A program made the translations under genes and the position numbers. The notes beneath the pieces are model-generated. The model did not search any database, was not told where the DNA came from, and worked only from the letters and a program-made list of their open reading frames with translations. From Leptospiraceae bacterium (GTDB taxonomy: Bacteria > Spirochaetota > Leptospiria > Leptospirales > Leptospiraceae): a DNA stretch of 64,000 nucleotides. Positions 5,703 to 49,410 of this stretch are shown one piece after another; positions within the stretch are counted from its first letter, which is position 1; every line of letters begins with the position of its first letter. The DNA lies in contig JAGOHK010000001.1 in assembly GCA_017996175.1 (NCBI GenBank), positions 62,001 to 126,000 of the forward strand, given 5' to 3'.

Positions 5703-6668
5703 CTACTTTTTTATGTATTTAACTTTACCCGCTCCTTCAACATACGTATCCACATTGAGATAACCGAAGTAATCCTCACCTTTAAGAATAAATGTTTCAT
5801 TATCTCGACCGAATTGATTTCGGTCAAAGCCTGCATTTACCCCAAAGCGTTTTGTCTGAGGTCCGCCTACAAATTGAATTTCTTTAAATACTCCATCTAC
5901 TAGTCGAACTTTAGGAACGGAATCAAACTTATCTTTTGTATAAGTATCTTTATCGTAAGTAAATTCGATTTCAGAGACTTCTAAAAATTCTTCTCCTTCT
6001 CCCAAAATTCTAAGTGGGTTGTAAGAAAAAAATCCTTTTGCAGTTTTGCCTTTATTAAATCCAGAAACGATTTCGATTTCTAAATTATAAGAGACAGAGG
6101 CGATGAAGTTTTTATCTGTAGTTAGAGTTGTATTTAAAGATTTTTCATTTGTAGTTGCGATTTGAATTTCGGAAAGAAAGTCATCTCCATTTGTATGTAA
6201 AGTCGATTTTGCATTTAGCTCATAAATGAATGATCCTGTGGGAGCGATTAATTCTGTCTTGACGACATTTTCCAAATGATTACCGTTACTATAAGTAGGG
6301 GATAATACTAAATCGCCTTCTGGCTTGTGTCGATTCCATTTCTGCCAGACAACTCGGAGTTTCGCAATATGAGAAGCTCCAAAGTAATCACCTTTGTCTA
6401 AGTAAAAGCCGGAAATCACGTAACCATTTTTTAGGATAATTTTTTCTGTACCGCCATTTCCACCGACTTGTTTTCCGCCAAAAGTTAAGTCTTCTATTTT
6501 TCCGGCTTTATCAATAACGCCATAAATGGGTCGAATGGAATCAATAATATCTCCATGTCGAATAATTAAACCAGCTAACACTTTGGTTTTCTTTGCTCCA
6601 ATCTCTTCTGCGGATAACGCTAAATTGCCAAAGATTAAAAGTAGTGATAGGTATTTTATATATTTCAT
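5703..6668 (-). CDS. Secreted protein of unknown function, possible jacalin-like lectin domain
   Basis: I place the start at the ATG ending at 6668, not nine codons upstream, because AGGAG lies eight bases before it and the protein then begins with a clean signal peptide (MKYIKYLSLLLIFGNLALSA, cleavage before EE). The mature part is rich in beta strands. Residues about 25-110 contain IRHGDIIDSI, a GG-x(2)-GG-x-GG-like stretch and a following L-x(3)-Y-V-I-S-G segment, which resembles the repeat pattern of jacalin-like lectins. This resemblance is by eye only. The C-terminal half (about 200 residues) matches nothing I recognise. A family 1 repeat begins 26 bases upstream of the start. It is probably periplasmic or exported. 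Confidence 0.7.
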   Translation of the reverse strand: MKYIKYLSLLLIFGNLALSAEEIGAKKTKVLAGLIIRHGDIIDSIRPIYGVIDKAGKIEDLTFGGKQVGGNGGTEKIILKNGYVISGFYLDKGDYFGASHIAKLRVVWQKWNRHKPEGDLVLSPTYSNGNHLENVVKTELIAPTGSFIYELNAKSTLHTNGDDFLSEIQIATTNEKSLNTTLTTDKNFIASVSYNLEIEIVSGFNKGKTAKGFFSYNPLRILGEGEEFLEVSEIEFTYDKDTYTKDKFDSVPKVRLVDGVFKEIQFVGGPQTKRFGVNAGFDRNQFGRDNETFILKGEDYFGYLNVDTYVEGAGKVKYIKK

Positions 6669-46377: not shown

Positions 46378-46710
46378 ATGATTTTCGTTTACATCACTTG
46401 CAAGAATAAAGAAGAAGCAATTAGCATTGGTAAATCACTTGTTACAGCAAGGCTTGCAGGTTGTGTAAATATTTTAGAGCAAATGACTTCCATTTATGAA
46501 TGGGAAGATCAATTAGAAGTTACAGAAGAAGTTATTCTCATCGCGAAAACAAATGAATATCTCTTTCAAGAAATCATTTCTCATGTAAAGAAGATTCATT
46601 CGTATACTGTCCCTTGTATTTTATCCATTCCCATTCAAAACGGCAACGAAGAATACATGAAGTGGTTGGAATCTGGATTAAAAAAGAATACCACCGATGA
46701 ACACCGATAA
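46378..46710 (+). CDS. cutA: CutA family protein (divalent-ion tolerance)
   Basis: 110 residues, the usual length. Family features: MIFVYITCKNKEEAISIGKSLV, LAGCVNILEQMTSIYEWE, then VILIAKTN, HSYTVPCILSIPIQNGNEEYMKWL. CutA forms very stable trimers; its link to copper tolerance is mainly from E. coli. The last residues (KKNTTDEHR) are encoded by a family 2 repeat (from 46685), whose TAA is the stop codon; the normal end of the protein is at or near WLESGL. Two bases separate it from the pstS-like gene. Confidence 0.92.
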   Translation: MIFVYITCKNKEEAISIGKSLVTARLAGCVNILEQMTSIYEWEDQLEVTEEVILIAKTNEYLFQEIISHVKKIHSYTVPCILSIPIQNGNEEYMKWLESGLKKNTTDEHR

Positions 46711-46853
46711 AAGAACGATTGTTTTTATTATGGTCATGGGGGTTGAATAATATGGAATTAAACGACGCACGTTAAGAAACGCAAAAGAATATACTTAATC
46801 TAATGGACATCGCTTTGTTATCGGTGCTCTCGGTGTTCATCGGTGGTAATCTT
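46685..46853. repeat. Family 2 inverted-repeat element, copy 3
   Basis: Ends AATACCACCGATGAACACCG and (right) CGGTGTTCATCGGTGGTAAT, so the termini pair over about 20 bases. The interior (ACGACGCACGTTAAGAAACG and CATCGCTTTGTTATCGGTGC) matches the partial copy at 21361-21480. It overlaps the 3' end of cutA. Confidence 0.7.
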
Positions 46854-46892: not shown

Positions 46893-46923
46893 GGTAATAA
46901 AAAACCCGCTCGAAAGCGGGTTT
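46893..46923 (-). terminator. Rho-independent terminator of the Lys/Ala-rich peptide gene
   Basis: On the minus strand AAACCCGCT, a TTCG tetraloop and AGCGGGTTT form a perfect 9-bp stem followed by TTTTATT. It lies 43 bases after the stop codon of the peptide gene at 46966-47040. It is the clearest intrinsic terminator in the window. Confidence 0.85.
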
Positions 46924-46965
46924 AGTTTTAAAAAAAATTGATCTATTTTTTTTAAAGAAGTTTCA

Positions 46966-47040
46966 TTACTTCTTTTTTGCAGCAGGTTTCTTTTTTGCAG
47001 CAGGTTTTTTCTTAGCAGCAGCTTTCTTTTTTGCAACCAT
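46966..47040 (-). CDS. 24-residue Lys/Ala/Pro-rich basic peptide, histone H1-tail-like
   Basis: The minus-strand frame reads MVAKKKAAAKKKPAAKKKP and then AAKKK-stop. The ATG has a perfect GGAGG eight bases upstream, a promoter-like pair lies about 75-100 bases upstream, and a strong terminator follows, so the short length is not a reason to dismiss it. Every third position varies synonymously among the repeats (AAG/AAA, GCT/GCA). The A-K-K-K-P-A pattern is that of histone H1-type tails, such as those in bacterial Hc1/AlgP-like proteins, and suggests a nucleic-acid-binding peptide, probably highly expressed. A longer frame on the same strand (46818-47036) is out of register and without a ribosome site. 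Confidence 0.75.
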   Translation of the reverse strand: MVAKKKAAAKKKPAAKKKPAAKKK

Positions 47041-47964
47041 TGATGTAGCCTCCATTTAGGATTTTGGTCTTTTTTTATTTTTTTCTAAATCCGACCAATA
47101 GATGTTAGTGACATAATTAATACGGCTATGAAATTATGTAAAGTATTTTTTTATTTTTTACAAAATATTTTTTACTTCTGTAAAGAATATCGCAACAAAC
47201 TACAAAATCCATTAATACTAATTATGAAATTTATTTCATAGAAGCATATAAAAAATAATTTTCAACAAAAAAATATTTTTAGAGCGATAAATCATGTTTA
47301 TTCCCTCGAATATACATCTACTGAGAGCTATTTTTGTTTTTTAAAATCCAAAATTATATCACACGTTGCTTTTTTTAATGTGAAGAAATAAAAATTGAGA
47401 GTGAATCAAGAAAATAAAAGTTTGAATCAGAGAAAAACTGGCTACATACTTCAAAAAAAGTATTAAAAAAATATTTTCGTAGAGTACAAATCATAAATTT
47501 AATCTAACTTACAAAGAATTTCTTTTTAAAAAACTTTTATAGACAAAACTTTATTAGAGTTGTTGAAAGATTCGAGAATAAATAGACTTCGCGCGCGTGA
47601 GATGCGAGTAAAATCATTCTATCTATTTTATTTTTCATCAAATCTATTGTATCGTTGCCTAATTTGTTGTAAAAAAGATACAATACAAAATAAAAATCAA
47701 TCTTTACGACGAGTTGAAAGCAAAAAATCATTCTAACAATCAATTTGTATGAATCAAAAATAGATTTAGATGGTACTAAAATGATATTTTATTGTTGAAC
47801 GATTGAATTTTACTATTTTCATTCTCGATTTATCATTTCGCTCTACTAAAAATCTTTTTTAAATCAGAAAAGTTTTATTATGTATAGAAATTTCTTCAAT
47901 TAACAAACAGGAAAAAAATAAAATGAATTACTGAGCAAACCAATTTGAACCAATAAAATAAAGG
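47041..47964. other. Long AT-rich intergenic region
   Basis: About 920 bases. The first 110 hold the leader and promoter of the basic peptide gene. The rest is very AT-rich, with many A and T runs and no frame that has a ribosome site and protein-like composition; the one frame over 60 codons (47537-47743, minus) looks random. It may contain the promoter of unseen small RNAs, but I see no defined structure. Confidence 0.55.
47114..47142 (-). promoter_or_regulatory. Candidate sigma-70 promoter of the basic peptide gene
   Basis: On the minus strand TTTACA, 17 bases, TAATTA, with the start of transcription expected near 47107 and a leader of about 65 bases. The -35 box is close to TTGACA and the spacing is optimal. 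Confidence 0.4.
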
Positions 47965-49410
47965 TTAAAAACTATGATTCAAATTCATAAAAAACTGTTT
48001 GTCTTCGCGAGATACTGCGTAGTCGAGAGAAATTACAGTCGATTGATTCCAAATAATTCGAAAAAGAATTCCACGCGAATATTTATAACCTTGTGTGTTG
48101 ATAGAATAAATAGAATCCCAAACTCTACCAAGTGCAAACGAAGGTCCAATTTGAAATGTAAAGTATTCATCACCCAATCTTAAAGATGCAAACCTATATC
48201 TAGCTTCTATATTTCCAAATCCCATTATATTTCCTACAAATCTATCTTGTTTGTATCCATGAAGAGTCGATCCACCTCCTAATCCATAGATTGGAGTGTC
48301 AATGCTCCAGATATGTCGGTATTCATAGAAGGGGATAGTTCCTGTTACACGCGTGAAAGCAACTCTTCCAGCTAAAATAAACTCTGAAAATACTTTTGGT
48401 AGAAGAAGATAGAAAAATTTTCCTTGCATGAATCCTCTTTGAAAATCAAAATCCGATCCCCAAGCTCTCGACGACTTTATAAAATTGATTTCCGCAAAAA
48501 TTCCTTTGCGTGGATTCGGTTCAAAGTCTCTTGAATCGTACGCAATTCCTGTTTTAAGATAATTTGTATATCCACCAGCGTAACCATTTATCTTTTCTGC
48601 TTCTTTATCTTCTGTAAGTTTTGTTTTTGCATTGGGTGTAGGAAGAATTACATTGATAAAAGAAAAATCTGTTTCTCCAAAGTACGGATCTTTTGCTTTC
48701 GTAATTTTTCCATCATAAGCTCTCACAATCATTCGTGAAACATCAGCTCCTAAAGCAAAACGAAACGCTCCCCAAAAAGTTCTATCTACATTCAAAGTAA
48801 AACCAGAATTTTCCGCATCGTATTCATTGTATCTTTGATCGGTAACGTAATCACTTCCAATTGCAGATCGATTTGGTCTTCGATAAGAAAGTGCTTCTTC
48901 TCGTTTATCAAATTCTGCATTCGTAATAAGTGGTTGTGAAACATCATTTCTAGGATGATATGAAAGTGGTTTCAAAGTTGATTCACCCACTCCAAAGTAC
49001 TGCCCCCGCAAATTTCTATCGTAAAAACCGTATAAATTGATTCTATAAGGTGTATCTCGAAAGAAAGGAAGATCTATGCCCGCTCCATAGTATTTCGCTC
49101 CTACAGAGGATTGGTAATAATCTACAGAGACTCTATATACATAAGGAGAATACGCGAAAAGTGGATTCGATTTTTTTCCGTTTTCAATGTAGTATCCGCT
49201 GCCCCCATACCAAATTCCAGTCACTGGATCGGAGCTAATCGAAGGAAGCCCTGTGATAAATGAGCCTTCGCGTTTTGATTTTAATTCTTCTTCTTCCATC
49301 TTTCTAGATTCATCTAAGTGAAATGGTAATTTCTTTTTTGTATCAGGATGAATTTCTTCTGCATAAGAAGAAACAATACAAAATAGAAAAAGGAGGACTG
49401 CGTAAACCAC
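47965..49410 (-). CDS. Omp85-like surface antigen (BamA/TamA-type barrel without POTRA domains)
   Basis: 481 residues. A signal peptide (MVYAVLLFLFCIVSSYA) is followed by a short charged segment and a 16-strand-like beta barrel. The Omp85 C-terminal signature is present: LGGGSTLHGYKQDRFVGN followed by IEARYRF, and the protein ends NLNHSF with the terminal Phe. There is too little sequence before the barrel for POTRA domains, so it belongs to the barrel-only surface antigen (D15) group. Located in the outer membrane; partner unknown. Confidence 0.85.
   Translation of the reverse strand: MVYAVLLFLFCIVSSYAEEIHPDTKKKLPFHLDESRKMEEEELKSKREGSFITGLPSISSDPVTGIWYGGSGYYIENGKKSNPLFAYSPYVYRVSVDYYQSSVGAKYYGAGIDLPFFRDTPYRINLYGFYDRNLRGQYFGVGESTLKPLSYHPRNDVSQPLITNAEFDKREEALSYRRPNRSAIGSDYVTDQRYNEYDAENSGFTLNVDRTFWGAFRFALGADVSRMIVRAYDGKITKAKDPYFGETDFSFINVILPTPNAKTKLTEDKEAEKINGYAGGYTNYLKTGIAYDSRDFEPNPRKGIFAEINFIKSSRAWGSDFDFQRGFMQGKFFYLLLPKVFSEFILAGRVAFTRVTGTIPFYEYRHIWSIDTPIYGLGGGSTLHGYKQDRFVGNIMGFGNIEARYRFASLRLGDEYFTFQIGPSFALGRVWDSIYSINTQGYKYSRGILFRIIWNQSTVISLDYAVSREDKQFFMNLNHSF

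Follow-up and report, generated by a model that had tools for sequence, protein, structure and literature searches.

On the minus strand of the 64-kb stretch of DNA analysed here (the window), positions 46966 to 47040 hold 24 codons and a TAA stop encoding the 24-residue peptide MVAKKKAAAKKKPAAKKKPAAKKK, in a frame that is kept in eight genomes. The previously unnamed gene specifies 12 Lys, 8 Ala and 2 Pro (Lys 50%) and no acidic residue; for the peptide a mass of 2.55 kDa, a pI of about 11 and a net charge of about +11.5 at pH 7 were calculated. A scan of the window for K/A/P-rich frames returned this frame as the sole match. Both the 24-codon Lys/Ala/Pro gene of the initial annotation and the perfect GGAGG that it had placed ahead of it were confirmed. 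The GGAGG (read 47053 to 47049 on the minus strand) is a Shine-Dalgarno (SD) sequence 8 nt before the ATG and is GGAGG in seven of the genomes and AAGGAGAGG in the eighth (G006). The start was set at 47040, because a frame opened by the in-frame ATG further upstream at 47055 (MEATS-) would take in the SD, and the relatives have not kept this ATG. From the -35 element to the end of the terminator the whole transcription unit spans 47142 to 46895 on the minus strand.

The promoter consists of a -35 element TTTACA (47137-47142, minus strand), invariant in the eight genomes, and of a -10 element AATTAT (47118-47113) followed by a GTC discriminator (the two together 47110-47118, minus strand), of which nTTATGTCnC is kept in all eight. 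The initial annotation had recognized this pair correctly but with a spacing of 17 bases; the spacer is 18 nt long in every one of the eight genomes. At the other end lies an intrinsic terminator (46895-46923, minus strand) with a 9-bp stem, a TTCG loop and a T-run, which as annotated reads exactly AAACCCGCT-TTCG-AGCGGGTTT-TTTT at 46923-46899 and has a counterpart at the same place in 8/8 genomes. Within the window alone the promoter scan gave about as many matches as chance would (11 against 10.1) and terminators numbered 2 against 0.5 expected, so that the reality of the unit rests on comparison. The string TTTACA-N18-NTTATGTCNC is present at the tiny gene in all eight genomes, and each genome has a single TTTACA-N(17-19)-NTTATGTCNC, at the tiny gene, barring two extra matches. 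One of these, in G003, is a duplicated contig end; the other, in G007, lies inside an unrelated coding frame with a 16-nt spacing to the hexamer and was dismissed as a chance match.

Between promoter and SD the transcript can form a 6-bp hairpin, UUGGUC...GACCAA (47064-47098, minus strand), the loop of which (GGAUU) could in the genus of the window also pair with a downstream AAUCC in a pseudoknot-like manner. The leaders were compared one by one, since those of different genera do not align; other genera have a stem of different sequence in the corresponding position, about equally far from the transcription start: 7 bp in G005 and in G007, 10 bp in G004, and a weak one in G006 (stem length, combined P about 5e-4). 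Folding energies of the whole leaders are only mildly below those of shuffled sequences (z from +0.1 to -2.2). There is thus moderate evidence, from base pairing predicted genome by genome, that the 5′ hairpin is conserved across genera; the usual role of such a hairpin would be mRNA stability. A leader frame MSL- at the conserved ATGTCnCT was discarded; in every genome its ATG shares bases with the -10 hexamer, and its stops are unrelated.

By DNA search and motif searches the unit was found in 8/8 examined genomes assigned to the family (Leptospiraceae-type spirochaetes), which represent five genera, none of them recognizable as the genus Leptospira, and the motif SD-MVA[KP]KK was absent from 40 other genomes of the class. 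We propose a gene family defined by the TTTACA-18-nTTATGTC promoter, the SD, a peptide with MVA and KKK repeats, and the terminator, all four of which are combined in one monocistronic unit in each of the eight genomes. The initial annotation had named orthologues with an unconserved frame as one observation that would speak against the gene; the frame proved to be conserved in the eight genomes and five genera. On this comparative ground it is near certain that MVAKKKAAAKKKPAAKKKPAAKKK is the product of a real gene and not of a chance open reading frame.

Genome G003 contains in addition an 18-residue relative, MVAKKKPAAKKKPAAKKK (L043 1496-1552, G003:C46), with ATTATGTC, an SD and a terminator; AATATTATGTC is also found at this copy. 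The 18-residue gene may come from another species, because G003 is listed as 7% contaminated. The G003 assembly moreover breaks exactly at the tiny gene, and the contig ends G003:C347:1-300 and G003:C590:1-152 both bear copies that overlap, which is what a sequence common to several strains would produce. Tiny K-rich matches elsewhere in the phylum were set aside as starts of longer proteins (L118, L119), as tails of longer frames, read by eye (L120 and probably L121), or as a different frame of 50 residues (L117). The N-terminal pattern was also met in 17 viral contigs, mostly in longer or unrelated frames, except for one (L099, see below).

The gene of G004, which belongs to another genus, specifies the identical 24 residues, and 12 of its 12 nucleotide differences are synonymous and in third positions, for which the chance under random substitution is about 1e-8. 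Because between these genera the coding sequence for the same peptide has changed only at third positions, the frame is, as judged from this substitution pattern, under purifying selection at the protein level. In other genera (G005 MVAKKKAAAKKKVASKKKTASKKK, G007 MVAKKKAAKKKAAKKKAAKKKAAKKKVPV, G006 MVAPKKKKTVKKKAAKKKVAKKKAARKKK) the MVA start and the KKK rhythm are kept, while spacers, residues and repeat number drift; that the number of repeats varies answers a comparison proposed with the initial annotation. The length shifts by whole residues, with 24 residues in six genomes and 29 in two.

Within the genus of the window no change, synonymous or otherwise, was found in the coding sequence among G000, G002 and G003, whereas for its neighbours in the same genus (a pstS-like gene, cutA and the DUF5982/Omp85 gene) 20-46% of the amino-acid-identical codons have changed; the chance of no change in 23 codons then lies between 6e-3 and 6e-7. 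The frozen coding sequence points to an extra constraint, on codon choice or RNA structure, or to recent exchange. With a ribosomal-protein reference taken from close relatives (L4 was not found in the window's own genome), codon choice in G000 (P 0.0015-0.0035) and in G001 (0/4000 simulations) resembled that of ribosomal-protein genes more than it did the background; G004 shows no such bias (P = 0.30). Part of the bias is an excess of AAG, which avoidance of slippage alone could explain. For five of the six distinct frames codon usage predicts longer A-runs than are present, as would be seen if there were selection against poly(A) slippage in translation.

The neighbour on the downstream side, outside the unit, is the convergent gene cutA (CutA1, PF03091; 46378-46710, plus strand), which occupies the same convergent place in G002, G003, G005 and G007. 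In G001, G004 and G006 the flanking genes are different ones, because of which the unit, to judge from gene order, behaves like an independent gene that rearrangement has carried to other places. The same comparison bears on whether the frame could be the leader peptide (attenuator) of a downstream gene, or the decayed tail of a larger K/A/P protein. The frame is very short and directly followed by a terminator, which is what either would predict; against them, selection keeps the frame and the unit has its own promoter in 8/8 genomes. Since the next gene is convergent in seven of the eight genomes and co-directional only in G004, attenuation is refuted as a general explanation, and we regard leader peptide and decayed tail together as extremely improbable.

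Searches of Pfam, NCBIfam, PHROGs and PDB with MVAKKKAAAKKKPAAKKKPAAKKK gave no match, the absence being weak evidence for a query so short and repetitive, and no report from bacteria came up when the literature was searched for the repeat strings. The likeness of the peptide to a histone H1 tail, pointed out initially, is borne out in composition and charge rhythm. There is also a likeness to the Lys-rich Hc1 and Hc2 of Chlamydia and BpH1 of Bordetella, with short repeats, Ala/Pro/Val/Thr spacers and variable repeat number (PMC2848022): the tiny peptide has their Lys/Ala/Pro-rich short repeats without acidic residues. It differs from them in that Hc2 is 165-237 residues long and Hc1 has a dimerizing N-terminal domain, and it was not matched by the corresponding NCBIfam models NF038052 and NF038053 (Hc1/Hc2/BpH1), to which even the 60-residue Stenotrophobium protein described below scored only E = 0.24. 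With the C-terminal KPAA domain of AlgP (AlgR3) and PhaF of Pseudomonas it shares Lys/Ala/Pro repeats and predicted disorder. However, AlgP has an N-terminal domain of 124 and a C-terminal domain of 195 residues, and the tiny gene is a 24-residue tail only; the helical N-terminal domain of AlgP/PhaF is missing, the whole frame comprising 24-29 residues with its own SD and promoter, and the AlgP/PhaF repeats have a single K where the tiny peptide has KKK triplets. By these defining features it is outside the Hc1/Hc2 and AlgP families; by analogy, it would work like the tails of AlgP, Hc1 and Hc2. What is new is that such a tail stands alone as an entire gene.

Nor does the peptide belong with the folded nucleoid proteins. 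It has no Pfam match to HU/IHF (PF00216; HU fold, about 90 residues), and HU is encoded separately, in 7/8 family genomes, so that these cells have an ordinary nucleoid protein. Leptospira interrogans has an abundant histone-fold protein (PMC10627809); the histone fold PF00808 (compare Bd0055 and Leptospira LA_2458) matched neither the peptide nor any protein of the eight family genomes, a model that may miss bacterial histones.

A likeness in sequence is seen in a 60-residue K/A/P protein (L056) of Stenotrophobium rhamnosiphilum, a gammaproteobacterium; the first residues of this protein, MVAKKKAAAKKKPAAKK, match the window peptide almost exactly. It is 2.5 times longer, comes from another phylum and has unrelated upstream DNA; the likeness is probably convergent. 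The viral contig IMGVR_UViG_3300012980_000004 (L099, 393 kb) carries at 6171-6260 a free-standing frame of 29 residues, MVAKKKAAAKPKAKPAKKPAKKAKKSAKK, with an SD GGAGG; it lacks the shared promoter and has a different repeat register, and we consider it a similar tail-only gene in a virus.

We propose, as rather likely, that the free-standing monocistronic gene encodes a small H1-tail-like polycation that binds nucleic acid electrostatically, with DNA and/or RNA as the presumed target. From the conserved promoter (-35 TTTACA, 18 nt, nTTAT, GTC) would be transcribed a leader of about 65-70 nt with its 5′ hairpin, then the strong SD, the frame of 24-29 codons and the intrinsic terminator. Transcription would be strong and the peptide would stay disordered in the cytoplasm, where its KKK triplets, two or three small Ala/Pro residues apart, would neutralize backbone phosphates of DNA and probably also of RNA without sequence specificity and thereby help to condense or bridge the nucleoid, in the manner of a histone-H1 C-terminal tail on its own, and together with HU. 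Peptides with KPAA repeats have been reported to bind DNA in vitro (PMC9239181), the Lys-rich tail of Hc1 binds DNA, Hc2 binds DNA and RNA, and Hc2 evolves by variation of repeat number (PMC2848022). Against an H1-like role it can be said that such tails are normally longer and that, at physiological salt, the binding of a 24-residue peptide may be weak. A more specific form of the proposal, which we put forward tentatively, is that of a family-wide, highly expressed architectural protein of 24-29 residues, an H1 tail as a complete gene and among the smallest nucleoid proteins, the expression of which would be set by the conserved leader hairpin and by a promoter found at no other gene.

Three other functions were weighed against this one. 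The peptide could be a tiny RNA-directed factor that binds ribosomes or rRNA rather than DNA, like the small basic ribosome accessory proteins (bacterial Thx). The sequences of Thx and subunits of its kind are specific and free of repeats. The tiny peptide is very small, very basic and free-standing, with a strong SD and, in the genus of the window, ribosomal-protein-like codons, as one would expect of such a factor, and for Hc2 a stronger binding of RNA than for Hc1 has been reported (PMC2848022); however, from genus to genus the peptide differs in its residues and in how many repeats it has, as would hardly be expected if it occupied a fixed binding site, and PDB was unmatched, though with the weak query mentioned above. 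On balance we think a ribosomal role unlikely. The transcript of about 210 nt could instead act as a regulatory or dual-function small RNA, the peptide being secondary. This would agree with promoter, 5′ UTR and coding sequence being nearly unchanged in nucleotides within the genus, more so than the neighbouring genes, and with a 5′ hairpin that persists despite its changed sequence, but not with the third-position changes between genera, the mark of protein selection; nor did any Rfam family of structured RNA match anywhere in the window, and a function as RNA is to us improbable.

Another polyanion as target, such as polyphosphate granules or membrane phospholipid, or a role as general counter-ion like a polyamine, seems distinctly improbable. 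The argument for it is AlgP, which with its KPAA repeats localizes to polyphosphate granules and the tail of which is needed for granule spacing (PMC9239181). But the large N-terminal domain of AlgP is missing from the tiny peptide, and an unsystematic look at the genes closest by revealed no polyphosphate gene.

If the H1-tail-like polycation is indeed a nucleoid factor, it would be close to the minimum protein able to organize DNA and would offer a natural setting for testing the function of an isolated H1-type tail. Genes of this kind would be hidden by the length cut-offs of gene calling, by the low-complexity filters of homology search and, in proteomics, by trypsin, which leaves fragments too small to identify, even though the tiny gene is present in every examined member of the family.

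The surroundings of the unit have features of their own. A 24-nt inverted repeat, AAGAATACCACCGATGAACACCGA, at 46684-46707 and 46830-46853 brackets 122 nt beside cutA. Its core CACCGATGAACACCGA occurs 57 times in G000, 57 times in G002, 13 times in G003 and not in the other five family genomes; it looks like a genus-level dispersed element of the type of a non-autonomous transposable element. The last residues of the window's CutA, TTDEHR (46690-46710), are encoded by the element, which appears to have supplied the stop codon. The cutA gene of G002 ends as in the window; that of G003 ends earlier, and where the window has the 24-nt repeat G003 has a different inverted repeat, GCCACAGAGGCGCAGAG ... 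CTCTGTGGC. On the other side, upstream of the promoter, about 800 AT-rich bases (47143-47964) without a convincing gene extend to the DUF5982/Omp85 gene (47965-49410).
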